Shown: in pieces, positions 18,657-45,847 of the stretch
Layout: each line of letters starts with the position of its first letter
How positions within the stretch are numbered: the first letter of the stretch is position 1
Assembly (NCBI GenBank): GCA_016870195.1
Contig: VGCC01000014.1
Coordinates: forward strand, 1-45,847
DNA: 45,847 nt
DNA from: Actinomycetota bacterium
GTDB lineage: Bacteria; Actinomycetota; Actinomycetes; S36-B12
Direction of reading: 5' to 3'
Program-made: the position numbers and the translations under genes
The notes under the pieces: model-generated
What the model saw: the letters and a program-made list of their open reading frames with translations, nothing else
The model's database searches: none
Told to the model about the DNA's origin: nothing

Positions 18657-18686
18657 GCACGTCACGGCCCCCCTCCCGTGACGTGC
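18657..18686. terminator. 11-bp hairpin after DUF4349 gene
   Basis: GCACGTCACGG and CCGTGACGTGC pair perfectly over an 8-base loop (CCCCCCTC). The hairpin sits 18 bp after the DUF4349 stop, between convergent genes. There is no T-tract, as is frequent in high-G+C actinobacteria. It could act in both directions. Confidence 0.65.
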
Positions 18687-29879: not shown

Positions 29880-30449
29880 TCAGTTGCCGGAGGGAGCCTC
29901 GGCGGCAGGTGTGCCCGCTGCTTCGGCGGCCGGTGCGGCAGCGGCCTCCTGCGCCGATGCAGCCGCGGATGCGGCCGCCGCGGCGGCGGCCTTCTCCTTG
30001 ACGTCGTTGACGGCGTGGTCGACCGCAACCATCGGATCCTCACCGCGGGCGACGGCCTCCTCGAGTGCCTGCACAACCGCAGCCGGGTCGTAGCCGGCTT
30101 CGACCGCGAGCTGGTGCGCCTTGGCGACTGCATCGGCGTACGAACTACGGATGGCTGCTTCCTGCTGGGTGATCACGACGAGGTCGACGTGTTCGAGGCT
30201 TCGCTTGACCGGATCGCGCTGGATGTCACGCGGCTTGGTCAAGTAGGTCGTGCCGTCGATCTGCACGTTGAGCACCACGCGCGGCTTGCGCAGGGCGAGG
30301 TCGAGCTCGTGCTCGGGGAGGGAGACGTGGGTGAGCTCGGTGCCGCGGCCGTAGATGACCCCGGGAACCTGACCACCGCGGCGCACACGGCGGGCAGCGC
30401 CCTTGCCGAAATCCGAACGCGGGGTCGCGCTGATGCTGACGTTGGTCAT
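29880..30449 (-). CDS. rplY: Ribosomal protein L25 (Ctc form)
   Basis: The 189-residue protein has the L25 5S-rRNA-binding domain (RSDFGKGAARRVRRGGQVPG, residues 10-30) and the TL5/Ctc C-terminal domain (to about residue 150). A tail of over 40 residues is almost all Ala, Glu and Pro, a frequent actinobacterial feature and probably disordered. GAGGAGA precedes ATG 30449. A 116-bp gap separates it from prs, so it may have its own promoter. Confidence 0.95.
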   Translation of the reverse strand: MTNVSISATPRSDFGKGAARRVRRGGQVPGVIYGRGTELTHVSLPEHELDLALRKPRVVLNVQIDGTTYLTKPRDIQRDPVKRSLEHVDLVVITQQEAAIRSSYADAVAKAHQLAVEAGYDPAAVVQALEEAVARGEDPMVAVDHAVNDVKEKAAAAAAASAAASAQEAAAAPAAEAAGTPAAEAPSGN

Positions 30450-30565
30450 GTCTCTCCTCGGCTCTCCTGCGCCTCGGCGCGACGCGCGCCGTGGGGCGCC
30501 GACGTCGATAACGGTGTTTCCACCCTCGCCGAGGACAGGCCGGACTCTATCAACCGCGCCTTTGG

Positions 30566-31564
30566 TCAGTGAGACGAGGCTTCGTCCTGGGTAGCCGCCT
30601 CGAACATGGTGGTCACCGAGCCGTCGGTGAAGACCTCGTGGATGGCCTTGGCCAGCAGCGGGGCGATGGGGAGAACGGTGAGCTTCTCGAATTGATGCTC
30701 GGGCGGAATGGGCAGGGTGTCGGTGACCACGACCTCGCTGATCGCGGAATTCTGCAGCCGATCCCGGGCCGGATGGCTCAAGATCCCGTGGGTGGCGGCC
30801 ACGATCACCTGCGACGCACCCTGCTCGAAGAGGGTCTCGGCGGCCTTCACGATCGTGCCACCGGTGTCGATCATGTCGTCGACGAGGATGCAGATGCGGT
30901 CCCGCACGTCACCGACGACCTCGAAGACGCGCACGTGGTGGGGTACGTCCGGGTCGCGACGCTTGTGGATGATCGCCAGCGGAGCACCGAGCACGTCGGT
31001 CCAGCGCTCGGCCACGCGCACGCGACCCGCGTCCGGTGAGACGACGGTGATCTGCTCGCGGGGCAGGTTGGCCGAGACGTGCGCAGCGAGGAGCGGCAGG
31101 GCAAAGAGGTGATCGACGGGGCCGTCGAAGAACCCCTGGATCTGCGAGGTGTGGAGGTCGACGGTCATCAGCCGGTCCGCGCCGGCGGTGTGGAAGAGGT
31201 CTGCCATGAGCCGAGCGGAGATGGGTTCGCGGCCGCGGTGCTTCTTGTCCTGGCGCGAGTAGCCGTAGAAGGGCACCACCACGGTGATGCGCTTGGCGGA
31301 TGCGCGCTTGAGTGCATCGATCATGATGAGTTGCTCCATGATCCAGGTGTTGATGGGCGTGGTGTGGCTCTGCAGGACGAACGCGTCGGTACCACGTACC
31401 GATTCCTGGAAGCGGATGAAGATCTCGCCATTGGCGAAGTCGTAGGCGAGGGTGGGCGAGACGTCAATGCCGAGTTCCTCGGCGACCTGGTGCGCGAGCT
31501 CCGGGTGGGACCGTCCGGCCAGGAGCACCAACTTCTTCTGGGTGGGCACGGACTTCTCGGCCAC
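30566..31564 (-). CDS. prs: Ribose-phosphate pyrophosphokinase
   Basis: The 332-residue PRPP synthase has the ATP loop around YGYSRQDKKHRGREPIS, the catalytic/regulatory VDLHTSQIQGFF, and the PRPP-binding signature CILVDDMIDTGGTIVKAAE (residues about 220-240). It makes PRPP for nucleotide, His and Trp synthesis. GTG 31564 has CAGGAGG upstream and overlaps the glmU stop by one base. Confidence 0.96.
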   Translation of the reverse strand: MAEKSVPTQKKLVLLAGRSHPELAHQVAEELGIDVSPTLAYDFANGEIFIRFQESVRGTDAFVLQSHTTPINTWIMEQLIMIDALKRASAKRITVVVPFYGYSRQDKKHRGREPISARLMADLFHTAGADRLMTVDLHTSQIQGFFDGPVDHLFALPLLAAHVSANLPREQITVVSPDAGRVRVAERWTDVLGAPLAIIHKRRDPDVPHHVRVFEVVGDVRDRICILVDDMIDTGGTIVKAAETLFEQGASQVIVAATHGILSHPARDRLQNSAISEVVVTDTLPIPPEHQFEKLTVLPIAPLLAKAIHEVFTDGSVTTMFEAATQDEASSH

Positions 31565-33039
31565 TAGACCTCCTGATCGTCGTTGGGGGAAACCCTGTCA
31601 GATGCGTCCCCGGCGGCGCGCGCGGCCTCGGCTGATGCGCTACCCGCGCGTCGGCGCTCAACCCAGCCGCGGATGTTGCGCTGCTTTCCGCGGCCGACCC
31701 CGAGCGCACCCGGTGGGACGTCGTCCGTGATGACCGAACCGGCGGCGGTGTAGGCGCCGTCGCCGATGGTGACCGGTGCGACCAGCATGGTGTCCGACCC
31801 GATGCGAACATCGCGCCCGATCACCGTGCGGTGCTTGTCCTGGCCGTCGTAATTCACCACCACCGTGGCGGCCCCGATGTTGGTGCCCTCCCCCACTTCG
31901 GCATCCCCGACGTAGGACAGGTGCGGGACCTTGGCGCCGTCTCCGATCTGGGAGTTCTTGATCTCGACGTAGGCACCGGCCTTGGTGTCGGCACCGAGTG
32001 TTGTGCCCGGGCGCAGATAGGTGAAGGGACCGACGGTGGCGCGCGCGCCGATCACGGCCAGCTCCGCCCAGGTGTGCCGCACCTCGGCGTCCGCACCGAC
32101 CTCGCAGGAGATCAAGGTGGTGCCGGGGCCGATCTGGGCGCCGGTCTCGATGGTGGTGGGACCGCGGAGCACGGTCTGCGGCGCCAACGTGACATCCGCG
32201 GCGATCTCCACGTCGACGTCGATCCAGGTCGATCCCGGATCCGCGATGGTCACCCCCTCGACCATCCAGTGCACGTTGATCCGGTCGCGCATGATCGCCC
32301 CGGCCTCGGCGAGTTGCACGCGATCGTTGACACCCAGGATCTCGGTGGGGTCGTCCACCACCGTCGCCGAAACCGGCTGCGCATCGCCGCGCATGATCGC
32401 GATCACGTCGGTGAGGTACTCCTCCCCCTGCACGTTCTGTCTGGTGACCGCGGCCAGGGACTCCGTCAATCGCTGCGCATCGAAGGCATACATCCCCGAG
32501 TTGATCTCTGCGATCTCGAGTTGATCGGCGGTTGCGTCGCGGTGTTCGACGATGGCGATGACCGACCCATCTGCATCGCGCACGATCCGGCCGTACCCGG
32601 TGGGATCCTCCAGGTCCGCGGTCAGCATCGTGGCCATCGCCCCCTGGCCGGCATGCGACTCGACGAGTTGCACGACCGTCGGACCCGTCAGGAGAGGCGT
32701 GTCGCCGGTGAGTACCACCACGGGACCACCACCCAGATCCGCGCCGCGTGCCGCGAGGTCCGCGAGTGCGATGCGCACCGCATGTCCCGTGCCGTGCTGC
32801 TCCTCCTGGACCACGGTGAGCACCCAGGGAGCGATCTCGGCCAGGTGCGCCACCACCTGGTCGCGACCATGCCCAACGACGACCATCAGGTGTTCGGGTT
32901 CGGTCGCCGCGGCCGCCTCGACGACGTGGCCGAGCAGACTGCGCCCGGCGATGGTGTGCAGGACTTTGGGGGTGGCCGACTTCATCCGCGTGCCCTCGCC
33001 CGCAGCGAGGATGATCACGACGGAGGGCCGGTGGCTCAC
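31564..33039 (-). CDS. glmU: Bifunctional UDP-GlcNAc pyrophosphorylase / GlcN-1-P acetyltransferase
   Basis: The 491-residue protein has the nucleotidyltransferase loop [18 protein letters not shown] at the start and, after about residue 240, the left-handed beta-helix acetyltransferase with isoleucine-patch repeats ([20 protein letters not shown], then [19 protein letters not shown]). A C-terminal tail of about 30 Ala/Arg-rich residues follows. It makes UDP-GlcNAc for peptidoglycan. GTG 33039 follows GGAAGGA; an ATG at 33057 lacks a site. Confidence 0.95.
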
Positions 33040-33097
33040 GGGTGCATCCTTCCGCATCGGATGGGGCTCGGGATACCGCCTGGCGCGTCACCCTGGA

Positions 33098-33541
33098 TTA
33101 GGGAGAACCTGCGCTCAGGGAAGCAAGCGGGACCACAAGAGGGTCGCCACCAGAGACGAGCTTTCGGTCATTGGTGACCAGCGCACGGCAGCCGTTATTC
33201 GTCGCCGTCGCCACGTGCAGGGAATCAGCGAAATCCAGACCCGACTGTCCGCGAAGGCGCGCCGAGGCTTCAAAGTCCTTGCGGGTGTGATCAAGGACTA
33301 GGAAGAGGTCATCGTTGTTCAGCAGGTCCCGTGCGGTCTCCACCGCGTGCGCATCGCCCCGGCGGTATGGCCCCGTGAGAACTTCCGCGCAGACCGCAGC
33401 CGAGATGAACGCGTTGTAGGTCCCGTCTGCGCAGTCGGCGAGGAACGATCTCGCCGCGGGCCCGAATCGGGGGTCATCCTCGAGGACGTAGATCACGACA
33501 TTCGAATCCACGTACACCGGGTCGCCAGCGCTGAGAGCCAT
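33098..33541 (-). CDS. vapC: PIN-domain toxin (VapC type)
   Basis: The 147-residue PIN RNase begins MALSAGDPVYVDSNVVIYVL with the first acidic Asp, then CAEVLTGP (Glu), LDFADSLHVATA (Asp pair) and LVTND (Asp), the four-acid Mg site. It would cleave RNA, as known VapCs cut tRNA or rRNA. Start ATG 33541 overlaps the antitoxin stop (TGATG). It probably forms a toxin-antitoxin pair with the upstream gene. Confidence 0.85.
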   Translation of the reverse strand: MALSAGDPVYVDSNVVIYVLEDDPRFGPAARSFLADCADGTYNAFISAAVCAEVLTGPYRRGDAHAVETARDLLNNDDLFLVLDHTRKDFEASARLRGQSGLDFADSLHVATATNNGCRALVTNDRKLVSGGDPLVVPLASLSAGSP

Positions 33542-33804
33542 CAGATGCCTTCGCGATTCCACGAGGCGCGATCGCGATCGATGGTCGCCTGAATCTCCTC
33601 ATGGGTTGTGCCCCAGACGCCTCTGAGAGCCCCATAGGCGCGCTCCACCGCAGCACGCGCGGCCTCGCGACTGCGGAAGCGGATGATGACGGCGTTCCCC
33701 TGCACCGAGACTTCACCGGTATCCCCCACGTGCAGGCCCAGTGCCTCCACCACCTCAGGCGGCAGGGTGATCTGGTTTCGTTGACGAACAGTGACGTGTC
33801 CCAT
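33541..33804 (-). CDS. vapB: AbrB/MazE-type antitoxin
   Basis: The 87-residue protein begins MGHVTVRQRNQITLPPEVVE, the swapped-hairpin AbrB DNA-binding fold (residues 1-50), followed by a helical toxin-binding tail (SREAARAAVERAYGALRG). It pairs with the VapC-like gene. GAGG precedes ATG 33804. The region upstream holds an inverted repeat. Confidence 0.82.
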   Translation of the reverse strand: MGHVTVRQRNQITLPPEVVEALGLHVGDTGEVSVQGNAVIIRFRSREAARAAVERAYGALRGVWGTTHEEIQATIDRDRASWNREGI

Positions 33805-33812
33805 GGAGTCCT

Positions 33813-33834
33813 CAGAAAATATCGCAAATTTCTG
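33813..33834. promoter_or_regulatory. Inverted repeat upstream of antitoxin gene
   Basis: CAGAAA-10-TTTCTG is a perfect 6-bp inverted repeat with an AT-rich 10-bp centre, lying 9 bp upstream of ATG 33804 and next to its ribosome-binding site. It is a likely autoregulatory operator for the AbrB-type antitoxin. Confidence 0.5.
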
Positions 33835-33897
33835 AAAGCCTAGATCTGTTGTCGTCATCGGTCAATCGTGGGCCAGGAGTTCGCGCGTTGGAAAGAG

Positions 33898-33932
33898 GCC
33901 CCTGTGGTGCTGTGGACAGCGGCTACAGGGGC
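33898..33932 (-). terminator. Hairpin spanning the SDR stop
   Basis: GCCCCTGT (33898-33905) and ACAGGGGC (33925-33932) pair over a 19-base loop; the SDR stop lies at 33923-33925. In minus-strand sense the hairpin is followed by CTCTTTCC, a weak pyrimidine tract. It is a plausible terminator of the operon 39048-33923. Confidence 0.4.
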
Positions 33933-34699
33933 GTGACGTACGCGCCGGAGATACCGCCGTCCACCAGGAAGTTCGACGCCGTGATGAACGAGGAATCGTC
34001 ACTGGCCAGGAACGCCACGGCAGCGGCGATCTCCTCCGGTTCCCCGAACCGACCCACCGGGATATGCACCAGGCGTCGGGCCGCCCGCTCGGGGTCCTTG
34101 GCGAACAACTCCATAAGAAGGGGTGTGGCCACGGGTCCGGGCGAAAGCGCATTGACCCGGATCCCGCTCCGCGCGAACTGCACACCGAGTTCCCGGGTCA
34201 TCGCGAGCACGCCACCCTTGGAGGCGGTGTAGGAGATCTGCGAGGTCGCAGCGGCCATGGTCGCCACGAAGGAGGCGGTGTTGATGATCGATCCCTTGCC
34301 CTGTTCGAGCATGTAGGGAAGCACCTCCTTGCAGCAGAGGTAGACCGACGTGAGGTTCACCTCCTGCACCCGACGCCACGCGTCGATACCCGTCTCCAGG
34401 ATCGAATCGTCGTCGGGCGGCGAGATCCCAGCATTGTTGAACGCGATATCGACGGTGCCGTAACGGTCCTTCGTTGCGCGGAAGAGTTCGGCCACATCGC
34501 CGGCATCGGTGACATTGCACTGCACGAACATCCCGTTCACTTCGTCGGCGGCGGCCTGCCCGGATGATGTGTCCATATCTCCGATCACCACGTGCGCACC
34601 CTCGTCGGCAAGACGGCGCGCAGTGGCCAATCCGATCCCGCTACCGCCTCCCGTGATGACGGCGGAACGGCCTTCGAGACGTCGGCACTTGCTGGACAT
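33923..34699 (-). CDS. Short-chain dehydrogenase in ethanolamine/amine operon
   Basis: The 258-residue SDR has TGGGSGIG (residues about 15-22), an NNAG motif and the Ser/Tyr/Lys catalytic set (NTASF, YTASK). It closely resembles the protein encoded next to aldC in the mycobacterial glnA4 cluster (Rv2857c-like, from memory). By context it could oxidise the alcohol of gamma-glutamyl-ethanolamide to an aldehyde, or act as a reductase. ATG 34699 follows TAGGAGT, 7 bp after the aldehyde dehydrogenase stop. Confidence 0.82.
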   Translation of the reverse strand: MSSKCRRLEGRSAVITGGGSGIGLATARRLADEGAHVVIGDMDTSSGQAAADEVNGMFVQCNVTDAGDVAELFRATKDRYGTVDIAFNNAGISPPDDDSILETGIDAWRRVQEVNLTSVYLCCKEVLPYMLEQGKGSIINTASFVATMAAATSQISYTASKGGVLAMTRELGVQFARSGIRVNALSPGPVATPLLMELFAKDPERAARRLVHIPVGRFGEPEEIAAAVAFLASDDSSFITASNFLVDGGISGAYVTPL

Positions 34700-34706
34700 G
34701 TGACTC

Positions 34707-36062
34707 CTATTCGTCGGTCGCGATGAAGACGTTCTTTGTCTCGGTGAAGGCCTCAGGCGCATCGGGTCCGAGTTCGCGGCCCAGACCGGACATCTTGAAC
34801 CCACCGAAGGGAGTCCAGTAACGCACGGAGGAGTGGGAGTTCACGGACAGGTTGCCCGACTCCACACCGCGCGCGACGCGCATGGCACGCCCGACGTCGC
34901 GGGTCCAGATCGAGCCGGAGAGGCCGTAGGGAGTGTTGTTGGCCATCCGGATCGCGTCGGCCTCGTCGTCGAAGGGGACCACAACGACCACGGGGCCGAA
35001 GATCTCCTCCGTGAACGCGCGATCGGATTCGGTGGCTCGAAGCACCGTGGGGGGGAACCAGAAACCGGATCCCGTGGGGCAGTGACCGCGGAACAGCACC
35101 TGGGAGTCGTCGGGCACGAAGGAGGCGACGGTCTCAAGTTGGCCGCGCGAGATCAGCGGACCCATCTCGGTCTTCTCGTCGCCCGGATCACCGACGGCGA
35201 CCCCGGCAACGGACGTCTCCAAGCCGGCGAGGAACTCGTCCATCACAGTGCGTTGCACCAGGATCCGCGACCGCGCGCAGCAGTCCTGGCCCGCGTTGTC
35301 GAAGACGCCGTACGGAGCTGTGGCTGCCGCCTTCGCGACATCGGCGTCGGCGAACACGATGTTCGCGCTCTTGCCACCCAGTTCGAGTGTCACGCGCTTC
35401 ACCTGCGCCGCACACCCGGCCATGATGCGTGTGCCCACCTCGGTGGAACCGGTGAACACGACCTTGCGGACCGTCGGGTTGTCGACGAACCGCTGACCCA
35501 CGATCGATCCTTTTCCGGGCAGAACCGTGAAGACGCCCTCCGGGATACCGGCCTCCCGGGCGAGTTCACCCAGACGGATCGCGGTGAGCGGCGTGAGCTC
35601 CGCAGGCTTGAGCACCACGGTGCATCCGGCTGCGAGCGCCGGCGCGAAACCCCAACCCGCGATGGGCATCGGGAAGTTCCACGGGACGATGATGCCCACG
35701 ACACCGATCGGTTCCTGGAACGTGATGTCCACGCCCCCCGGCACCGGGATTTGCCGCCCGAAGAGACGCTCGGGTGCGCCCGCGTAATAGTTGAGCACGT
35801 TGACGACGTTGCCCGCCTCCCAGCGCGCATTGCCGATCGTGTGACCGGAGTTGGCGACCTCGAGGTGGGCCAACTCCTCGGTGTGGTCGCGCACCACCGT
35901 GGCGAATGCACGCAGCAGGTCCGCACGCTCACCGGGGGCCGTGCGCTTCCACGACTCGAACGCGCGCTCGGCACGCGCAATAGCCGCGTCAGTCTCCGCC
36001 GCACTTGTGGCGGGCACCTCGGCGATGACCTGCTCGGTCGCAGGATTGATCACGGCGTGCAT
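34707..36062 (-). CDS. Aldehyde dehydrogenase, AldC type
   Basis: The 451-residue NAD-dependent aldehyde dehydrogenase has VPWNFPMPIAGW, FTGSTEVGT, catalytic Glu in TLELGGKS and Cys in NAGQDCCARS. It is about 30 residues shorter at the N-terminus than most, as is the mycobacterial AldC of the glnA4 cluster. In the proposed pathway it would oxidise a gamma-glutamylated aldehyde. It lies 7 bp after the ligase. Confidence 0.9.
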   Translation of the reverse strand: MHAVINPATEQVIAEVPATSAAETDAAIARAERAFESWKRTAPGERADLLRAFATVVRDHTEELAHLEVANSGHTIGNARWEAGNVVNVLNYYAGAPERLFGRQIPVPGGVDITFQEPIGVVGIIVPWNFPMPIAGWGFAPALAAGCTVVLKPAELTPLTAIRLGELAREAGIPEGVFTVLPGKGSIVGQRFVDNPTVRKVVFTGSTEVGTRIMAGCAAQVKRVTLELGGKSANIVFADADVAKAAATAPYGVFDNAGQDCCARSRILVQRTVMDEFLAGLETSVAGVAVGDPGDEKTEMGPLISRGQLETVASFVPDDSQVLFRGHCPTGSGFWFPPTVLRATESDRAFTEEIFGPVVVVVPFDDEADAIRMANNTPYGLSGSIWTRDVGRAMRVARGVESGNLSVNSHSSVRYWTPFGGFKMSGLGRELGPDAPEAFTETKNVFIATDE

Positions 36063-36069
36063 GGCGCTC

Positions 36070-37434
36070 CTAGAGTCGCTCGAATCCGCGGAACCGCTCC
36101 CAGTCGGTCACCGCGGAGTTGAATGCTGCCATCTCCACGCGCGCCATGTTCGCGTAGTGGGCCTGTACTTCCTCTCCGAAGGTGTCGCGGATCCAGGTCG
36201 AGTTCTCCCAGAGGGCTAGGGCCTCGCCCATGGTCGCGGGAACGCGGGCGGAATCGCTCTCGTACGCGTTGCCGACGAAGGCCGCCTCCAGCGGGAGTTT
36301 CCGGGCGACCCCGTCGAGTCCAGCGGCGATCATCCCGGCCACGGAGAGGTAGGGGTTCACATCCCCGCCGGGGATCCGGTTCTCCAAGCGCAGCGAGTGG
36401 CCGTGCCCCACCAGGCGGAACGAGCACGTGCGGTTGTCCCGGCCCCAGCGCAGTGCCGTGGGGGCGAAGGATCCAGCTTGATACCTCTTATAGGAGTTGA
36501 TCTGCGGCGCATAGAGGAGCGTGAGCTCGGCGGCGTGCGCGATCTGTCCGGCGATGAAACTCCGGCCGAGGTCGGACATGCCGTCGGGCGAAGAGTCGTC
36601 GGCCATGACCGCCTTGCCGTCGGCGGACCGGAACGAGAGATGGATGTGACACGAGTTGCCCTCGCGCTCGTTGAACTTCGCCATGAAGGTGATCGAGACA
36701 CCCTCCTGGGCGGCGATCTCCTTCGCTGCGGTCTTGTAGACGACATGGTTGTCGCAGGTGGTGAGGGCGTCGGAGTACTTGAAGGCGATCTCATGCTGAC
36801 CGAGGTTGCACTCCCCCTTCGCGCTCTCGACCGTCATGCCCGCATCCGCCATCGCGTTCCGGATGCGCCGCAAGAGCGGCTCCACGCGGGCAGTCCCGAG
36901 GAGTGAGTAATCGACGTTGTAGAGGTTGGCCGGTGTGAGGTCGCGGTAGCCGCTCTCCCAGGCTTCCTCGTAGGAGTCGACGAAGACGATGAACTCGAGT
37001 TCCGTCCCGACCATCGCCACCATGCCCTGGCCGGCGAGTGCAGCGAGTTGCTTGCGCAGGATCTGGCGAGGTGACGGGGCGACGTCGTGTCCCTCCTCGT
37101 CCTGGATGTCGCAGATCAGTGCCGCGGTTCCGGGCTGCCAGCTCTGCAGGTGGATGGTGTCGAGATCGGGGTGGAAGACCATGTCACCATACCCGGTGTC
37201 CCAGGACGAGAGGGCGTAGCCGCCCACGGTGTTCATGTCGACGTCGACTGCAAGGAGGTAGTTGCAGCCTTCCGTGCCGTGACCCAGTACCTCGTCAAGG
37301 AAGTGGCCGGCATGGACACGCTTGCCCTGCATGCGGCCCTGCATGTCGGTGATCGCGACGACGACGGTATCGATGGATCCGTCGTCGACGAGACGACGAA
37401 GTTCATCAACGCTCATGCGGGTCGGTTTGGCCAT
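36070..37434 (-). CDS. GlnA4-type glutamine-synthetase-like gamma-glutamyl ligase
   Basis: The 454-residue protein has the GS fold: TELEFIVF, GECNLGQHEI, GNSCHIHLSF and RLENRIPGGDVNPYL (ATP, Glu and metal sites). It lacks the adenylylated-Tyr region of GlnA and matches actinobacterial GlnA4/PuuA-type ligases that join glutamate to amines. In Streptomyces coelicolor GlnA4 makes gamma-glutamylethanolamide. The neighbouring ethanolamine-type permease favours ethanolamine; polyamines are the alternative. GGGAGG precedes ATG 37434. Confidence 0.88.
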   Translation of the reverse strand: MAKPTRMSVDELRRLVDDGSIDTVVVAITDMQGRMQGKRVHAGHFLDEVLGHGTEGCNYLLAVDVDMNTVGGYALSSWDTGYGDMVFHPDLDTIHLQSWQPGTAALICDIQDEEGHDVAPSPRQILRKQLAALAGQGMVAMVGTELEFIVFVDSYEEAWESGYRDLTPANLYNVDYSLLGTARVEPLLRRIRNAMADAGMTVESAKGECNLGQHEIAFKYSDALTTCDNHVVYKTAAKEIAAQEGVSITFMAKFNEREGNSCHIHLSFRSADGKAVMADDSSPDGMSDLGRSFIAGQIAHAAELTLLYAPQINSYKRYQAGSFAPTALRWGRDNRTCSFRLVGHGHSLRLENRIPGGDVNPYLSVAGMIAAGLDGVARKLPLEAAFVGNAYESDSARVPATMGEALALWENSTWIRDTFGEEVQAHYANMARVEMAAFNSAVTDWERFRGFERL

Positions 37435-37452
37435 GGTTCCTCCCTTAACTGA

Positions 37453-37486
37453 CACAGGAGGGAGGGGCGAACCCCTCCCTCCTGTG
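37453..37486 (-). promoter_or_regulatory. 15-bp perfect hairpin between permease and ligase genes
   Basis: CACAGGAGGGAGGGG and CCCCTCCCTCCTGTG pair perfectly over four bases; in minus-strand RNA the loop is UUCG. It starts 8 bases after the permease stop. The CCTCC of the 3' arm could also pair with the GGAGG of the glnA4 ribosome-binding site, so alternative folds could switch translation. There is no T-tract. Roles possible: partial terminator, mRNA stabiliser or attenuator. Confidence 0.65.
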
Positions 37487-37494
37487 GTGATGCC

Positions 37495-39048
37495 CTATTG
37501 GCGCCAGTCTTCCTTACCGGCTTCCTCGAGCTGCTCGGTGACGTCGTAGCCCTCCCGTTCGGGGAAGCCGTGCACGCCTCCGGTGACCGCGTACTCCTCC
37601 TCTGGGGAGAGCACGAGTCGCTTGCGCCCGAAGATCGCGAAGAGCACCAAACCAATGACATACACGATGGCCACCCAGATGATGACCGCTCGGTAGTCCG
37701 CGTTGAACGGCATGAGTACCAGGGTGAGCAGAGCGATGACGCCCGCCACCAGAGCACCCCACAGGCCAACGGGACTGCGGTAAGGACGCTCCGCATTCGC
37801 GAACTTCCGACGCAGGATGAGGAACGCCACCATCTGCAGGATGTACGCGATGACAGCACCGAATACTGCGATGAGCAGTAGCGCATTCGCAGCATTGACG
37901 TACGGTGCTTCTTCCCCTCCGTAGGCGATCGCACCTAATCCGAAGACGAGGACGACACCAACGACTGCACTGGCAACGAGTGCCACCCACGGCGTCTTGC
38001 GCGCACCTGTCAGAGACAGGAACTTCGGGTAGTAGCCCGCACGGGATAGCGAGTACACGTTGCGTCCCGCGGCGAACATGATCCCCTGGAACGACGCGAT
38101 CAAACCGGCGAGCGCCATCAACGACAGCAGCGCCGCAATGTCACTGTTCGGGAAGATCGCCCGGAAACCATCCAGGATCGGTTCCCCGGATCCCGAGATC
38201 GCCGCCGCGCCCAACACGCCTGGGTTGAGAATCAGGACGAGGAAGGCGGTGACGAGCAGCGTGAACATGCCCGTGATCGCACCCTTCGGGATGTCCTTTG
38301 CCGGCGTCTGCGTCTCCTCTGCCGCCAACGGAAGTTCCTCGATGCCAAGGAAGAACCAGATGGCAAACGGCATCGCCAGGAAGATTCCCAGGATTCCGTA
38401 AGGCAGGAACGTCGTGCCTCCAGCTTCTGGCGCGATGTCGAAGAGCTTGTCGGTGCTGAACTGCCCTGAGAACAGCGCAGAGATGAAGAAGATCGCCAGC
38501 ACTGCCAGAGAGATAATCGCGATGATAAATGCGAAGCGGAACGAGGCTGCCGCACCCGCCGCATTCAGGGCCACGAAAATCACGTAGATGATCAGCACCC
38601 ACACCAGAGTGGGCAACGTAATGCCGAAGAGGTCGGCCACGATCGCATCCGCATAGAGGGCGGCGAATGTGCCCACCACGGCCGTAGTAATCACGTACTC
38701 GACCGTTTCCGCGAATCCCGTGACGAAACCGCCCCAGGGACCCATCGCCGAGCGCGCAAACGAATACGCGCCACCCGTGTGGGGCATGGCTGCGGACATC
38801 TCCGAGATGCTGTAGATCATCAGCACATACATGACCCCGATGATGATCGTCGCAATGAGCATGCCGCCCCAGCCGGCGTTTCCAATACCAAAGTTCCAGC
38901 CGGAGAAATCACCGGAGATAACCGCGGCCACACCGAGGCCCCAGAGCGACGCAGCTCCGGCGTATCGCTTCAGCCCCCGCTTTTCGAAGTACTCCTTGCC
39001 CGCGTGGGTGTACTCGACACCACCGCCGGCGCTCACCTTTTGGTTCAT
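37495..39048 (-). CDS. Ethanolamine-type APC permease
   Basis: The 517-residue protein has about 12 membrane helices. The N-terminal region (GLGVAAVISGDFSGWNFGIG, then WGGMLIATIIIGVMYVL) matches the ethanolamine permease branch (EAT, within APC) that imports ethanolamine with protons. It is the first gene of the cluster, with AGGAGGAGG before ATG 39048. Amino-acid transport is the main alternative. Confidence 0.85.
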   Translation of the reverse strand: MNQKVSAGGGVEYTHAGKEYFEKRGLKRYAGAASLWGLGVAAVISGDFSGWNFGIGNAGWGGMLIATIIIGVMYVLMIYSISEMSAAMPHTGGAYSFARSAMGPWGGFVTGFAETVEYVITTAVVGTFAALYADAIVADLFGITLPTLVWVLIIYVIFVALNAAGAAASFRFAFIIAIISLAVLAIFFISALFSGQFSTDKLFDIAPEAGGTTFLPYGILGIFLAMPFAIWFFLGIEELPLAAEETQTPAKDIPKGAITGMFTLLVTAFLVLILNPGVLGAAAISGSGEPILDGFRAIFPNSDIAALLSLMALAGLIASFQGIMFAAGRNVYSLSRAGYYPKFLSLTGARKTPWVALVASAVVGVVLVFGLGAIAYGGEEAPYVNAANALLLIAVFGAVIAYILQMVAFLILRRKFANAERPYRSPVGLWGALVAGVIALLTLVLMPFNADYRAVIIWVAIVYVIGLVLFAIFGRKRLVLSPEEEYAVTGGVHGFPEREGYDVTEQLEEAGKEDWRQ

Positions 39049-39104
39049 GGCCCTCCTCCTGGGCGAACGGAACTAGCCACAGGGTGGGGCTGAACAGGCG
39101 GAAA

Positions 39105-39120
39105 TATGACCCAGATCACA
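39105..39120 (-). promoter_or_regulatory. Crp/GlxR-like site upstream of permease
   Basis: On the minus strand TGTGATCTGGGTCATA matches TGTGA-N6-TCACA with one mismatch, the consensus of Crp and actinobacterial GlxR. It is centred about 64 bp before ATG 39048. The binding regulator is inferred. Confidence 0.45.
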
Positions 39121-39162
39121 GGGAATCGCCGGAATTTCTGGAGTCCGAGGAGAGACCGGCGG

Positions 39163-39936
39163 CTAACTCAGCCCGCGCACCTTCTCATAGATCCGGGTGC
39201 GCATCTGCGCGAACCGGTGGTCGTTCCTAGTCTCGACCTGGCTCCGTGGGAAGGCAAGGTCGATCGAAACGATGTCGCTGACCGTGGCCGGCTTGCCGTA
39301 GAGAACGACCACGTCGTCGGACAGGTACGTGGCCTCGTCGATGTCGTGGGTCACCATCAAAGTGGTGATACCGAAGTCGGCCCGAACCTTGAGGACTAGG
39401 TCCTCGAGATCGAATCGAGTCTGGGCGTCGACAGAGGCGAAGGGTTCATCCATGACCAGGATTCGCGGCCGAACCGCCAAGGCACGTGCGATGCTCACGC
39501 GCTGCTGCATTCCGCCGGAGAGTTGCCAGGGATACGCCCTCTCACTTCCCTCCAATCCCACCTCGGTCAGGGACTCCTTCACGCGCTGTCGAACGTTAGC
39601 CTTCGAGATCTTTTCGTTGCGAAGGGGAAGGGCGATGTTGCGCTCCACCGTGAGCCACGGCATCAGCGAGCGCGTGTAGTCCTGCAGGACCACCGCCAAG
39701 CCCTCAGGGGCACCCGACAGTCGCTTTCCGGCGACGATGATCTCCCCGGCTGTCGGTTGCGCGAGTCCGGTCAGAAGTCGCAGCAGCGTGGTCTTGCCCA
39801 CCCCGGAAGGTCCTACAATGGAGACATAGTGGCCCTCGGTGACGTCATAGGAGATTCCACCCAGAACATGTTTCACACCGTCCGGGGTCGGGTAGTCCAT
39901 TCGCACATCGCGAATTGAAATGGCTGCCGTCGTCAC
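39163..39936 (-). CDS. NitT/TauT-type ABC ATPase
   Basis: The 257-residue ATPase has Walker A GPSGVGKTT, signature LSGGMQQR, Walker B ILVMDEPFASVD and H-loop VTHD. The class imports nitrate, sulfonates, taurine or thiamine precursors. GTG 39936 follows GGAGG. It is third after the two permeases, 14 bp away. Confidence 0.92.
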   Translation of the reverse strand: MTTAAISIRDVRMDYPTPDGVKHVLGGISYDVTEGHYVSIVGPSGVGKTTLLRLLTGLAQPTAGEIIVAGKRLSGAPEGLAVVLQDYTRSLMPWLTVERNIALPLRNEKISKANVRQRVKESLTEVGLEGSERAYPWQLSGGMQQRVSIARALAVRPRILVMDEPFASVDAQTRFDLEDLVLKVRADFGITTLMVTHDIDEATYLSDDVVVLYGKPATVSDIVSIDLAFPRSQVETRNDHRFAQMRTRIYEKVRGLS

Positions 39937-39950
39937 ATGTCCTCCGTCAC

Positions 39951-40727
39951 CTAGACGAGCTTCCTCTGACCGAAATACCAACGTAGCGAGATGCGTTCGA
40001 CCACGTCGAAGACGAGATTGAGGACGTAGCCGAGAATCCCGAGGAGCATCACACCGGTCCACGCATCGAGGATCATGAAGCTGTCCGTGGCGATCAGAGT
40101 GAAGGCACCAAGACCGAATCCCGACCCAAGAATCTCGGATGCGATTGCAACGATGAATGCGATCTGGAAGCCCACCTGCAATCCGGCGAACACGGTCGGC
40201 ATCGCGTTGGGCAGGCGGACACGCCAGAGAATTTGGTTTCGGGTCAGCCGGAAAACCATCGCCGTGTCGAGCAGGACAACGTTGGTCGCGCGAACACCCT
40301 CGATCGTATTGAGCAGGATTGGAAAGGACGCAGCAAATGTGATGGACGCAATACGCATCGAGGAGTCGAGTCCAAGTAGAAGGATGAAGATTGGAACGAG
40401 CGCTACGGGTGGAATTGAGCGGATGAAGTCGACCACGGGCTCGACATAGGTCGCGGTGGTTCGAGAGGAACCGACCACGACTCCGAGTGGAATTGCGATG
40501 ACCACGGCGATCAGGAAACCGACGATCAGGTTTTGGAGTGTGGGCATGACGTGGATGCCCCAGAACTGCCAGATCCAGTTGTACTGGAATTGCTCCCAGA
40601 TAGCGTGAAGTGGCGGAAAGAACGGGTCCGTCGAGTCAGCACTGGCGTTCCACCACCAGGTGATCAACAGGACCGGGAGCCAGCCCCCGATGAGAACTGC
40701 GAGCAGCCACCGTCCGATGCGCCTCAT
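39951..40727 (-). CDS. NitT/TauT-type ABC permease (second)
   Basis: The 258-residue protein has about six membrane helices and the coupling segment DTAMVFRLTRNQILWRVRLP, with PNAMPTVFAGLQ. Start ATG overlaps the upstream permease (ATGA). The importer uses two different permeases, which is less usual than a homodimer for this class. Confidence 0.88.
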   Translation of the reverse strand: MRRIGRWLLAVLIGGWLPVLLITWWWNASADSTDPFFPPLHAIWEQFQYNWIWQFWGIHVMPTLQNLIVGFLIAVVIAIPLGVVVGSSRTTATYVEPVVDFIRSIPPVALVPIFILLLGLDSSMRIASITFAASFPILLNTIEGVRATNVVLLDTAMVFRLTRNQILWRVRLPNAMPTVFAGLQVGFQIAFIVAIASEILGSGFGLGAFTLIATDSFMILDAWTGVMLLGILGYVLNLVFDVVERISLRWYFGQRKLV

Positions 40728-41482
40728 CGTCCACTCCAGAAGACAGCTCGCCGCTGCAGGCGCACGATGAGTCGGGATGTGACGAGACCGAGGATGCCCA
40801 AGGTGAGCACCACCGCGTAGGTCCGATCCGCCGTCCCGGCGGATTGATATAAGGCCGCCAACCTGCCCAAACCTGGTGCCCCGCCAACGAGTCCCGCCAC
40901 CACGGCCACGATCAGGCTCGCCGTTGCTGCAAGCCTGGTGGCCACGGCGATTTGGGCTGCCGCACTCGGGAGGCGGGCGTAGCGGATCTGCTGGAACGCG
41001 TTCATCCGATAGCAGCGCATGGTCTCGAGGAGTGTCGGGTCTGTGTCACGGATCCCGTACGCGGTCTGGATCGCGACCGCGAAGACATTCGCGAAGACAG
41101 CAAGGGCAATGCCCATCGCGATGCTGGGGCCAATCACCAGGATCGCGATTGGGATGAGCACGATCGGGGGGATGACCTTGAAGAAGTCGAAGGTGAACTT
41201 TGTCGAGCGGTACGTGAATCGACTGAGGCCGATGAGCAGGCCGAGCGGTACTGCGATGACCATGGAGAGTGCGAAGCCGATTACGGCCATCTGCAGCGTT
41301 TCGAAAACAGCAACCCAGAATTGGGAATCCGCGAAAAGACCGATCAGGGCGACGATGGCCTCACTTGCGGTAGCGAAGGAGTCGCCGGCCAGGGGGCCGA
41401 CCGATCCGACGACCTGCCAGATCAGCAAGACGACGACGGCCGAGACCAAGCCCGCCGGAATGCGGCGGTTCACGCCTGGCAC
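40724..41482 (-). CDS. NitT/TauT-type ABC permease (first)
   Basis: The 252-residue protein has about six helices and a coupling motif (TMRCYRMNAFQQIRYARLPS). It differs clearly from its partner. GTG 41482 follows AAGGAG, 27 bp after the binding-protein gene, so the order is binding protein, permease, permease, ATPase. Confidence 0.88.
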   Translation of the reverse strand: MPGVNRRIPAGLVSAVVVLLIWQVVGSVGPLAGDSFATASEAIVALIGLFADSQFWVAVFETLQMAVIGFALSMVIAVPLGLLIGLSRFTYRSTKFTFDFFKVIPPIVLIPIAILVIGPSIAMGIALAVFANVFAVAIQTAYGIRDTDPTLLETMRCYRMNAFQQIRYARLPSAAAQIAVATRLAATASLIVAVVAGLVGGAPGLGRLAALYQSAGTADRTYAVVLTLGILGLVTSRLIVRLQRRAVFWSGR

Positions 41483-41509
41483 AGCGACTCCTTCGTTATT
41501 GCGAACTCT

Positions 41510-42538
41510 CTAGCCGCGGTACTGCTTGTAAAGCAATCCCTTGATATCCAGCGGCTTCTTCAGGTAGCCCAGCGCCAACATCTTGTCCGCAGGACCGCGG
41601 AGGTCCAGGGCCGTGATGGTCGGCGGGAAGTACGAGGGGTTCGACTTCCGAGCCGTGGCGAGGTCGACCTGGGTGTACACCGGATTCGCCGACTGGAGGA
41701 TCTTGTCCCAGCCAGCGGTTGTGTTCCCGAACTTATGCACCTCAGCGATGGACTTCTGGAACGCTAGCACGGCTGCGGGATTCTTGGCTGCGTAGTCTGC
41801 GGTTGTCACCCACATGCCGATAGCGTTCTCGATCGTGAAAAACTGAATGCCCGGCGAACCGAGGTTCTTGAGGCCCTGGGCAGTGCACAACGAGGTGAAC
41901 GGCTCCACCGTGAAGGCCGCATTGACGCGACCAGCCTTCAGTGCATCCAGCATCGCACCGAAGCCCAACGTCACCCAGTTGACCGTGCCGGGATTGCCAC
42001 CATCGGCGATCATCGCCTGCGCGATAGTGACCTCACCCTGGGCATTACGGGCAGGCACCGCAACGGTCTTACCGTTCAGGTCCTTCCACGAGTTGATGCC
42101 ACCGCTGGGGCTCACGCACACTCCAGTGTCATCTAGTTTCGCAGCAAGTGCCAGGTCCTTCTTCGCCGCCGCGAGATCGCTGCGCTTGTACCCATCCGCC
42201 GGAGCAACGACCTTAAGGGCCATGCCACCATTGGCGTACGCGTTGATGATCGGAATGGACGGTGAGTAGACGAAGTCCACGGCACCACCGGCCAGGGCCG
42301 CAAGGGATGGCGGGGGCGCAGGGAAGATCCGAATCTCCGTGACATTGAGTCCGTTCTTCTTGAAGATACCCGCGGACTGTGCCCACGGGATCTGTCCCAT
42401 CGCGTTGATGGCGACGGTGCCCACCTTGATGTTCGTTTCGGCGGCTGCGGCCGGAGTCGCCGACACGCCGACGAGTGCCGCCGCAAACACACCGACGGTG
42501 CCAGCGAGCGCGACTGTTTTGCGTCGAATTGTGCTCAC
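41510..42538 (-). CDS. NMT1/SsuA-like ABC substrate-binding protein
   Basis: The 342-residue protein has a Sec signal (RRKTVALAGTVGVFAAALVG, cut near SATPAAAA; no lipobox Cys) and an NMT1/SsuA fold: NIKVGTVAINAMGQIPWAQS, PSLAALAGGAVDFVY. GTG 42538 follows GGAGG. No lipobox suggests release or loose anchoring. Substrate is unknown; sulfonates or thiamine/pyrimidine precursors are typical of the class. Confidence 0.85.
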   Translation of the reverse strand: MSTIRRKTVALAGTVGVFAAALVGVSATPAAAAETNIKVGTVAINAMGQIPWAQSAGIFKKNGLNVTEIRIFPAPPPSLAALAGGAVDFVYSPSIPIINAYANGGMALKVVAPADGYKRSDLAAAKKDLALAAKLDDTGVCVSPSGGINSWKDLNGKTVAVPARNAQGEVTIAQAMIADGGNPGTVNWVTLGFGAMLDALKAGRVNAAFTVEPFTSLCTAQGLKNLGSPGIQFFTIENAIGMWVTTADYAAKNPAAVLAFQKSIAEVHKFGNTTAGWDKILQSANPVYTQVDLATARKSNPSYFPPTITALDLRGPADKMLALGYLKKPLDIKGLLYKQYRG

Positions 42539-42713
42539 GTCTGTCCTCCAAAGTTCCTCGACTTCGCCCGTCCTGGGCTCCCCCACCATAGGTGAACGGC
42601 ACGTGAATATCCCACGAATCGCCCAGATCATTCGAGTCGGTACGATCTCCACAAAGTTTGTCGGGAATTGCTTTCGTAAACGCGCGCGTCCACCGACTAA
42701 CGTGCATCCCACC

Positions 42714-44360
42714 ATGACCGGTGGATCGCGCCGAATTCTCGGCAACGCGCGCGTCGGGACGCAGTCACGCATGAGCACGATCATCATCGAGGACCGCGAC
42801 ATCGTCGCCATCCTCCCCTCAGAGGACGCCCCCCCGCCCACCGAGGACCTCGGCGGCCGGACGGTGATCCCCGGGATCGACGATTCACACCTGCACGCCT
42901 ATGAGCACGGACGTTCGCTGACCGCGCTGCCCCTCGGCGATGCACCCGATCTGGAGAGCCTGCGGAACCTCCTGCGTGCTGCGCAACCGGAGAGCTTGGG
43001 CTGGTATCGGGGTCAGGGGTGGCTGCCGTCGGTGCGTGGCTCCGGTGCTGATGGTCGACTGTCATCAACAGACATCGACGATGTGACCGCAGCGGGCCCC
43101 GCTCTCCTCGGGGACTTCTCAGGCCACGCCGCCGTGGTGAACACCGCGACACTTCGCGCGGCAGGAATCGACGCGTCCACGCCGGACCCTCCCGGCGGGG
43201 TTGTGGTTCGCGATGCGGCAGGACATCCCACCGGACTCCTGTTCGAAGCTGCCATCGGACTGGTGGCGGGTGCCATGCCACCAATCACTGCGGCGGAACG
43301 CTTCGACGCGATTCGCACGGCGCACACCGACCTACTGCGCCGGGGGATCGTTTCGGTTACCGACCCGGGCCTGGGCCCCGGCGGGACGACCCTCATGGAC
43401 GGCACCGGGACACTCGACGCGGTTGCGGCCTACCAATCGCTCGACGACGCGGGCGACCTCCACATCCGCACACACATCATGTTGCTGTTCGGTGGTCTGG
43501 GAGGCACCACGGCAGAGATGGTAGCCGAGGGTCTCGATGCGTGGGGTCCTCCGCGCCGGGCTCCGCGCCATCAGCGGGTGAGCATCGATCAACTCAAGGT
43601 GTTCGCCGATGGGATCCCGCGCAGCCGCACATCCTGGTTGAGCGAGCCGTACGACGACTGCACCCACGGTCACATGACCGTAGCCGGGGACAACGACGAG
43701 GAACGCGTTGCGGAACTTCACGCGATCGTCCGTGCGGGAGCATCCCGCGGCTGGCAGGTCGGAACCCACGCCACGGGAGATGCGACCATCACCACGTTCA
43801 TCGACACCATCGAGGCGCTGACGTCAGGACGGCACCTCCGTCACTACGTGATCCACGGCGATCTCGTGCAGCGGTCCGACCTCCCACGTCTCCAAGCGCT
43901 CGACATGGCCGTGAACACACAACCGGGGATCCGGTGGGCCGTGGCCTCCGCCGCGTCGCAGTTCCTGGGCCGCGAGCGCAACCTCAGCAAGCAACCCCTT
44001 CGCTCGATGATCGACGCCGGTCTCGTTCTCGCTCTCTCGACTGACGCTCCAGTCATCGAACCGGATTGGCGGCGCACTCTCGTCTCCGCCGTCACACGGA
44101 ATCTTCGCGATGAACCCGACTACACCGACGCGGAGGCGATCACAGTCGATCAGGCGCTCGATGCGATGACCCACGCCGGTGCCTGGCAGTGCCACGAAGA
44201 GGGGTGGCGTGGTCGTATCGCGCCAGGGATGGCAGCCGACTTGGTCGTCCTCGACCGTGCTGTCGACTGGACTGACCCAGACGACATCCTCGCCATCGGA
44301 GTGGATTCCGTCCTGATCGATGGCAGGGTCGCGTACGGGGAACTCGGGAGGCTCGCGTGA
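42714..44360 (+). CDS. YtcJ-like amidohydrolase
   Basis: The 548-residue enzyme of the amidohydrolase-3 family has HLHAYEHG, a carboxylated-Lys candidate in DQLKVFADG, GTHATGDATI, HYVIHGDLV and STDAPVIEPDW. The N-terminal strand ILGNARVG supports ATG 42714; ATG 42771 is the alternative start. Its end overlaps the sulfatase by 4 bp. Members hydrolyse amides or esters of varied small molecules. Confidence 0.82.
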   Translation: MTGGSRRILGNARVGTQSRMSTIIIEDRDIVAILPSEDAPPPTEDLGGRTVIPGIDDSHLHAYEHGRSLTALPLGDAPDLESLRNLLRAAQPESLGWYRGQGWLPSVRGSGADGRLSSTDIDDVTAAGPALLGDFSGHAAVVNTATLRAAGIDASTPDPPGGVVVRDAAGHPTGLLFEAAIGLVAGAMPPITAAERFDAIRTAHTDLLRRGIVSVTDPGLGPGGTTLMDGTGTLDAVAAYQSLDDAGDLHIRTHIMLLFGGLGGTTAEMVAEGLDAWGPPRRAPRHQRVSIDQLKVFADGIPRSRTSWLSEPYDDCTHGHMTVAGDNDEERVAELHAIVRAGASRGWQVGTHATGDATITTFIDTIEALTSGRHLRHYVIHGDLVQRSDLPRLQALDMAVNTQPGIRWAVASAASQFLGRERNLSKQPLRSMIDAGLVLALSTDAPVIEPDWRRTLVSAVTRNLRDEPDYTDAEAITVDQALDAMTHAGAWQCHEEGWRGRIAPGMAADLVVLDRAVDWTDPDDILAIGVDSVLIDGRVAYGELGRLA

Positions 44361-45847
44361 GCGTGATCGTGGTGGTTATCGCCGACCAGTTGCGTGCCGA
44401 TCACCTGGGCTTCGAAGGTCAGGTCCCCGTGCGAACCCCGAACATCGATCGCCTCGCGAGCCAAGGCCACGTGTTTCAACGCGCGTTCGCGGCGAATCCC
44501 GTGTGCATGCCGAACCGCGCGACGATCATGACCGGCCGGTGGCCGTCCGCCCACGGTCTGCGCACCAATGGCATCCCCCTCCACCCCGACGCGGAGACCT
44601 TCCCCCGGGTCCTTCGCGGCCAGGGGTGGTGCACAGCGGCCGTCGGCAAGTTGCATCTGCAGCCAATGGGCTATCCGTACGAGGACTATCAACTCGACCA
44701 GATCCGTGCGGCGATGCCCGCGCTCTGGGAGCGCGCTGTGCATGGACCCTTCGGGGAATCCTTTGAGTCCTGGGAAGACTTCCAACGTCATGTCGACGGG
44801 GATGTCACGCTGCCCCCGGACTACTACGGATTCGACGACGTGTCCCTCGTGTGCGGGCATGGTGACCGCGTATCGGGAAACTATCTGCGATGGGCGCGCG
44901 ACCGCGGGTTCGATCCGTTGGCCCAGGCCGGCCAGGCGCACGCTGTAGAGACATATGCAGGGTGGTCGGGTCAGGTCTACGCGTCGGCTGCGCCAGCCGC
45001 TCTGCATCCGACCACCTACGTGACCGAGGAGGCGATCCGTCGACTCACCGAACACACCGAAGGGCATCTCCTTCTCTATGTGTCTTTCCCCGATCCACAC
45101 CATCCCTTCGCGCCACCCCTCGAGTACTACCGCCGGCACGATCCCGCTTCCATGCCGATTCCCACGAGCTTCCATCAGAGTCACGAGCGCTCCCCTGAGC
45201 ACCTACGCCGCATCGCGGCCAAGCGCGGCGAACCGGATACCGATCCGATGATGTTGTGGGCCCCGACCGAGGATCAATTCCGCCATGCGCTCGCCGCGGA
45301 ACTGGGTTCGATCGAATTCATCGACGACTCCATCGGTCGGATCCTGACCGCGATCGACGACACCGGGCTCGCGAACGACACCGTTATCGCGCTCACCGCC
45401 GATCACGGCGACGTTTTCGGCGATCACGGGATGATCCTCAAACACTTCACGCACTATCGGGGTGCCGTGCGCGTCCCGCTCATCATCGGCGGAGCAGTGG
45501 AAGGCTCTGGAACCCACCAGGAGCTGGTGAGCAGCGCGGACATCGGGCCCACGCTGATCGACCTCGTGGACGCCCCGCCACTGCAGACAGCGCAGGGACG
45601 TTCGCTGACACCGCTACTGCGCGGCGATACTCGTCCCTTGCGCTCGTCGATTCTCATCGAAGAGGACCAGCCCTACGGCATCGACGGGCTGCCCGGCCCG
45701 GTGAGGATCAGAACCCTGGTGACCGATCGATTCCGGATCAGTCGCTATGCGGGCACCACAGTCGGTGAGTTGTACAACCTCACCGTGGATCCCGACGAGG
45801 CGGTGAATCTCTTCGATAACCCGGCCGCTGCAGCGTTACGCGCCGAG
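44357..45847 (+). CDS. Sulfatase / phosphonate-monoester-hydrolase-like, 5' part
   Basis: The frame is open from GTG 44357 to the window edge (497 codons). It has the N-terminal metal site VVVIADQLRADHLG, C50-M-P52-N-R54 (CxPxR, formylglycine site), and DHGDVFGDHGMILKH. The Cys requires formylglycine generation. Substrate could be an aryl or alkyl sulfate or a phosphate/phosphonate ester. The GTGA overlap couples it to the amidohydrolase. Confidence 0.9.
   Translation, partial: MSVIVVVIADQLRADHLGFEGQVPVRTPNIDRLASQGHVFQRAFAANPVCMPNRATIMTGRWPSAHGLRTNGIPLHPDAETFPRVLRGQGWCTAAVGKLHLQPMGYPYEDYQLDQIRAAMPALWERAVHGPFGESFESWEDFQRHVDGDVTLPPDYYGFDDVSLVCGHGDRVSGNYLRWARDRGFDPLAQAGQAHAVETYAGWSGQVYASAAPAALHPTTYVTEEAIRRLTEHTEGHLLLYVSFPDPHHPFAPPLEYYRRHDPASMPIPTSFHQSHERSPEHLRRIAAKRGEPDTDPMMLWAPTEDQFRHALAAELGSIEFIDDSIGRILTAIDDTGLANDTVIALTADHGDVFGDHGMILKHFTHYRGAVRVPLIIGGAVEGSGTHQELVSSADIGPTLIDLVDAPPLQTAQGRSLTPLLRGDTRPLRSSILIEEDQPYGIDGLPGPVRIRTLVTDRFRISRYAGTTVGELYNLTVDPDEAVNLFDNPAAAALRAE

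Follow-up and report, generated by a model that had tools for sequence, protein, structure and literature searches.

Stable stem-loops at the 3' end of bacterial genes have been described both as terminators and as elements that protect the message upstream. In mycobacteria, terminators include U-less hairpins located at most 50 bp from the stop codon, the I-shaped class as described in PMC12288462, and terminators of Streptomyces are reported to be U-poor, very stable and covarying (PMC12207403). Within operons, selective RNA processing and stabilisation relies on operon-internal 3' stem-loops that stabilise the upstream cistron and, in Clostridium, the stoichiometry of operon products is set by such stem-loops, according to the account in PMC8219983. 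Differential decay within operons via stem-loops protecting the upstream cistron is described in PMC5927463. As for gene content, the glnA4 ethanolamine cluster of Streptomyces comprises an ethanolamine/amino acid permease, a GlnA4-type ligase, an aldehyde dehydrogenase and a short-chain dehydrogenase (SDR), as reported in PMC6529630.

Here we analysed a hairpin located between the first two genes of an operon with this same gene content, in a stretch of 45,847 nucleotides (hereafter the window) whose nearest named relatives are Candidatus Nanopelagicales and other actinobacterial metagenome-assembled genomes. The genes around the hairpin all lie on the minus strand (Table 1). Because the gene content matches that of the Streptomyces cluster as described in PMC6529630, the pathway encoded is likely ethanolamine use by gamma-glutamylation, the substrate being assumed by analogy. 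Unlike the window operon, the Streptomyces cluster is presented without a hairpin in what the account in PMC6529630 covers. Every match of the ligase to models of the glutamine synthetase family fell below the cut-off, and solved glutamine synthetases were matched as well. In the window, the ligase and aldehyde dehydrogenase genes are separated by 7 nt, and the later junctions of the operon are tight or overlapping. A search of a plasmid collection matched four records, each over 16-23% of the query; for three of the four, the annotation gives a gene of the glutamine synthetase family. Behind the operon, two small genes on the minus strand (33098-33858) resemble by eye an AbrB/MazE-like antitoxin and a PIN-domain (VapC-like) toxin.

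Table 1. Features of the permease-ligase operon, in window coordinates and in the order of transcription.
Feature	Position	Strand	Remarks
CACCCT, -10-like hexamer upstream of the permease	39081..39086	-	Candidate operon promoter (putative function)
APC-family permease, ethanolamine-permease-like, 517 aa	37495..39048	-	Nearest NCBIfam model TIGR00908 (ethanolamine permease), 366.5 bits, slightly below the cut-off of 381.75
Permease stop codon	37495-37497	-	
Perfect 15-bp stem-loop, UUCG loop on the transcribed strand	37453..37486	-	3'-end hairpin of the permease cistron
Ligase ribosome-binding site, GGGAGG	37439..37444	-	Contains GGAGG
Glutamine-synthetase-type ligase, 454 aa	36070..37434	-	GlnA4-like by gene context; ATG at 37434
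Aldehyde dehydrogenase	34707..36062	-	Operon gene 3
Short-chain dehydrogenase (SDR)	33923..34804	-	Operon gene 4; NF004713, 489.4 bits, above cut-off

On the transcribed (minus) strand the hairpin reads CACAGGAGGGAGGGG-TTCG-CCCCTCCCTCCTGTG, with a purine-rich 5' arm, a pyrimidine-rich 3' arm and a predicted stability of -32.8 kcal/mol. It begins 8 nt past the permease stop and ends 18 nt ahead of the ligase ATG; 3' of the stem come 9 nt, then GGAGG, then the ATG. The first-pass annotation had placed this stem exactly, and it was also right in locating CCTCC in the 3' arm and the GGAGG of the ligase 9 nt downstream. The UUCG loop is closed by a G-C pair and differs among relatives. The extra-stable tetraloop is cUUCGg, closed by a C-G pair, and the loop of the window is unlike it in this respect. 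No other perfect stem in the window is as long, and none of 20 first-order Markov copies of the window exceeded 12 bp. When the 121 nt around it were folded (plus strand), we obtained a z-score of -3.9, and none of 200 shuffles folded as well. The second-longest perfect stem, at 18657-18686, has 11 bp and a C-rich loop of 8 nt. A dispersed repeat was ruled out, the hairpin's own 2.13 Mb assembly giving no matches other than the hairpin itself and its reverse complement. Scanning the window against Rfam gave no match at gathering score.

Like a canonical intrinsic terminator, the hairpin is GC-rich and closely follows a stop codon, but no U-tract stands directly 3' of the stem, which is followed by TCAGTTAAGG. 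A scan of positions 30000-45847 for canonical terminators returned six sites, with 6.5 expected in shuffles, and the hairpin was not one of them. It does correspond to an I-shaped terminator in the sense given in PMC12288462, that is, a stable hairpin no more than 50 bp from the stop and devoid of a U-tract.

To see it against its own genome, we sampled the window together with 20 stretches of 20 kb each, in all about 446 kb of the 2.13 Mb, with genes called by a crude ORF rule and with a stem-loop finder which, here and for the family hairpins, takes no bulges and limits the loop to 12 nt. Stem-loops of -20 kcal/mol or below were detected in 13 of the 379 post-stop segments sampled; six reached -25 and four -30 kcal/mol, and the window hairpin is the strongest of all. 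Seven of these 13 stand at convergent gene ends and six, including that of the window, before a gene on the same strand. The four convergent-end hairpins at -25 kcal/mol or below have 12-16 pairs and loops of 4-5 nt and start 6-14 nt after the stop; three have no T-run and one is followed by TCCTTTTCGA. The assembly encodes both Rho and PNPase and, therefore, Rho-made ends and exonuclease trimming are both possible.

The permease is present in 12 of the 85 genomes of the family. A hairpin of 13-21 pairs (-21.0 to -47.4 kcal/mol) follows its stop in all 12. Genomes this closely connected do not count as independent, and loci L005 and L086 carry an identical stem. The distance from stop to hairpin is 5-34 nt, and at most 26 nt in 11 of the 12 loci. 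The next gene is the ligase in ten genomes and an ABC-ATPase-like gene in the other two (L034 and L078). We take the latter gene to be an ABC ATPase, by its Walker motif. In locus L005 (genome G003), a tRNA-like sequence (by eye) precedes the last 16 matching permease residues, a hairpin of -31.6 kcal/mol and the ligase; the body of the permease is missing, and either a real rearrangement or a misassembly is possible.

We then compared gene ends in matched long loci, with a loop limit of 16 nt, bulges ignored (as in the order and class comparisons below) and L032, a 39% paralog, excluded. A strong hairpin was found after the permease in 12/12 loci, after the ligase in 0/11, after the aldehyde dehydrogenase in 1/9 and after the SDR in 1/9, which means that the operon's own end has no such hairpin in eight of nine loci. 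Among 22 loci whose ligase has no permease immediately before it, a single one shows a hairpin in the 110 nt upstream of the ligase; two of these 22 (L019 and L020) come from the same genomes as L034 and L078, with the permease two genes further upstream. Judged from these loci, the hairpin is tied to the permease and not to the ligase ribosome site, and its position is conserved.

The three closest junctions were aligned by sequence only, and their stems fall in register. All 45 cells pair (45/45) and five of the 15 pairs are changed on both sides, a result matched by one of 500 shuffles; two of the three junctions have an identical stem, which makes this effectively one comparison. When the partner is slid by 1-3 columns, no more than one doubly changed pair is left. 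Over 12 junctions, double changes affect 12 of the 15 pairs and 76.7% of the cells pair, which none of 500 shuffles reached, although this count uses the window's own stem and is biased towards that stem, derived from one sequence; the best slid version gives seven doubly changed pairs. Counting further pair types gives a less striking result, one that 15 of 500 shuffles reach. With RNAalifold, the 12-sequence alignment yielded only eight pairs and a covariation term of -0.53, which is weak; this outcome is due to the varying lengths of loops and stems among the junctions, and the pair count on the stem of the window was the clearer of the two. What selection appears to maintain is the pairing rather than the sequence, and this favours an RNA element. 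The homologous clusters, to which the first-pass annotation had looked for a check, do retain the hairpin in every permease-bearing genome of the family, with compensating changes.

At the level of the order, the permease occurs in 19 of 166 genomes. Two further order loci with the ligase as next gene (L114 and L115) both carry the hairpin (-38.9 and -33.8 kcal/mol), as do four of five more distant permeases (L116-L120), L118 being the exception. Of the 394 genomes sampled from the class, 27 have the permease, which gives 23 loci not already counted. Of these, 21 could be scored (L136 and L142 were dropped, with no permease stop near the match end), and a hairpin at -20 kcal/mol or below was present in nine; the ligase directly follows the permease at none of the 23. 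The hairpin is constant in the family of the window and patchy outside the order. In another family of the class, two loci (L042, 5551-5640; L122, 2902-2991) have a post-permease hairpin of 17-18 pairs whose 3' arm includes the ribosome site and ATG of the next gene, which encodes a protein of 231-235 aa, glutamine-amidotransferase-like by eye. These two hairpins are candidates for start-codon sequestration or translational coupling.

The ligase starts 18-43 nt after the hairpin in the 12 junctions (the start of L088 being projected 3 nt short), and no TANNNT is found in this interval in any of them. Upstream of the permease, a -10-like hexamer [TC]ANN[CT]T is present at 12/12 loci, with 0.36 expected from shuffles, the motif having been picked after looking. 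A promoter-like motif, TA[CG]GGCAG[AG]GT, stands as an exact match 46-79 nt before the ligase in eight of the 22 loci with no permease directly upstream (L007, L008, L009, L010, L012, L015, L016 and L018) and in none of seven permease-ligase loci. In L034 and L078, the gene that follows the permease hairpin has TACCGT or TACGGT (TAC[CG]GT) 6 nt ahead of its ATG, a placement suggestive of a leaderless promoter immediately after the hairpin in these two genomes. In the operon of the window, transcription probably starts from a promoter ahead of the permease. With a hexamer before the permease, none before the ligase and the ligase motif absent, the ligase message most likely arises by readthrough, in which case the hairpin cannot be a full stop.

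We propose, with a probability of about 0.58, that the hairpin, GC-rich and U-less, is a terminator-type element at the 3' end of the permease cistron and keeps the ligase message below the permease message. RNA polymerase would pass the hairpin frequently enough for the three downstream genes to be expressed and a share of the transcripts would end at the hairpin, so that permease message would exceed ligase message. The proposal builds on the hairpin, its place, the maintenance of its pairing, its association with the permease and the lack of TANNNT before the ligase, all read directly from the sequences. As to how the transcript ends would be made, our first choice, a tentative one, is partial intrinsic termination; with somewhat less assurance, the ends may lie where 3'-5' exonucleases trimming the distal message halt. 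These two routes are compatible and not exclusive, and the ligase would be lowered relative to the permease because U-less termination and protection of the upstream cistron both do so.

Set beside the mycobacterial I-shaped and the Streptomyces U-poor terminators, as far as they are described in PMC12288462 and PMC12207403, the hairpin shares a long, stable GC stem soon after the stop, the lack of a U-tract and covariation among relatives. It differs from them in being internal to an operon whose next gene begins 18 nt further on, where it cannot stop all transcription, and termination at it is predicted. With the systems of selective processing and differential decay, as presented in PMC8219983 and PMC5927463, it shares a stable intergenic stem-loop at the 3' end of a selected gene, the first of the operon, under a promoter that we presume to be common. 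In those accounts the systems belong to Clostridium and to relatives of E. coli, and the window hairpin is likened to them by sequence and place. In the library searched, we found no paper joining Nanopelagicales with terminators and, among the matches listed, none joining this ligase with hairpins, which is a weak test of absence from the literature. The stem-loop of the Rhodobacter puf operon is a further described case of an operon-internal stabilising stem-loop. The type of element is thus already known, and the window hairpin is a further example of it. The first-pass annotation had suggested differential expression inside the operon; this part is sustained by the conservation of the hairpin, with covariation, at the permease 3' end, and a functional hairpin giving such differential expression is plausible, although not by the ribosome-site mechanism considered below.

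Several points count against our proposal. The hairpin has no U-tract, is patchy outside the order and is missing from the operon's own end in most loci. In addition, the mycobacterial RNA polymerase reportedly needs a U-tract, to go by the title of a 2014 paper by Czyz, and this title and that of a 2020 paper by Ahmad contradict each other on the matter. In E. coli, a translating ribosome may hold open a hairpin near the stop and suppress termination, as described in PMC4824070, and given the 8-nt distance a ribosome could likewise keep the window hairpin open. Finally, in S. coelicolor, predicted terminators at most 10 bases past the stop are enriched before over-represented, and not under-represented, operon genes, which the authors, as reported in PMC1779546, read as an internal terminator combined with an internal promoter. 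As this pattern runs opposite to our proposal, it lowered our confidence from about 0.62 to 0.58.

The short distance from stop to hairpin, which would let ribosomes suppress termination, also gives rise to another explanation, a translation-sensing attenuator. Translation of the permease would hold the hairpin open and the ligase genes would be transcribed; failing or lagging translation would allow folding and cut-off. We consider this improbable; if it were true, the catabolic enzymes would be made only when the transporter is.

Just as improbable, in our opinion, is a translational insulator, in which the hairpin would stop terminating ribosomes from re-initiating at the ligase and the two genes would be translated independently. 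The hairpin does lie between stop and ribosome site in 12/12 permease-ligase junctions, while the later junctions of the operon are tight or overlapping. However, it is retained in L034 and L078, in which a promoter-like hexamer of its own precedes the next gene and the hairpin has no nearby ribosome site to affect.

Slightly less credible still is a full terminator, with permease and ligase transcribed as separate units and the ligase from a promoter of its own. The promoter-like motif that precedes the ligase in eight of the 22 loci lacking a permease immediately upstream speaks for it, as does the frequent over-representation of S. coelicolor genes behind such hairpins in the data of PMC1779546. 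Against it stand the gap of 18-43 nt without TANNNT in all 12 junctions and the lack of an exact match to the ligase motif in all seven permease-ligase loci, and any promoter further upstream would still transcribe through the hairpin.

The mechanism put forward in the first-pass annotation was a switch of the ribosome-binding site, in which the 3' arm quits the hairpin, pairs with GGGAGG and shuts off ligase translation. Indeed, the 3' arm of the window pairs with the segment before the ligase at -15.8 kcal/mol, which ranks above 97% of shuffled arms. Two mutually exclusive folds of comparable stability were not observed: with the 5' arm unpaired, the best fold has -54.5 kcal/mol against -77.7, about 23 kcal/mol worse, and the summed probability of pairing between arm and ribosome site is 6e-6 by partition function. 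Nor is the complementarity conserved, since over 12 junctions the species' own arms pair with the pre-ligase segment at a mean of -10.2 kcal/mol and the arms of other species at -9.9, and the window's arm is the only one of the 12 to beat composition-matched shuffles at 5% (0.027). The stems remain formed in 10/10 family junctions, with mean pair probabilities of 0.90-1.00. In L086 the pairing sum between the 3' arm and the ribosome-site region is 0.74, with the hairpin pairs at a mean probability of 0.94, and we infer fraying of the outer pairs. The hairpin is, moreover, transcribed earlier than the ribosome site and persists in the two genomes with a different next gene, and we know of no helper protein or ligand for such a switch. 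A switch between exclusive CCTCC/GGAGG folds is not supported, and we regard it as very unlikely; that the 5' arm of this hairpin is rich in purines and its 3' arm in pyrimidines best accounts for the match.

Equally remote is a DNA palindrome bound by a regulator: the inverted repeat is perfect, but its sequence, stem length and loop vary among relatives while the pairing stays, the genome has no second copy and the site lies within the operon, not at a promoter. Least credible of all is a chance or mutational artefact, a simple repeat of GGGA units (the first-pass annotation had itself allowed for a simple repeat), which the purine-rich and pyrimidine-rich arms might suggest and which is contradicted by a stem longer than in all 20 Markov windows and kept in 12/12 family genomes with compensating changes.

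For comparative work the locus is a clean case: in uncultured actinobacteria, compensating changes have maintained a U-less hairpin inside an operon, most neighbouring junctions of that operon being without one. Its natural variants could serve for testing transcript ending versus protection by such hairpins in actinobacteria. For annotation it carries a warning, as a strong post-stop hairpin here need not mean the end of an operon.
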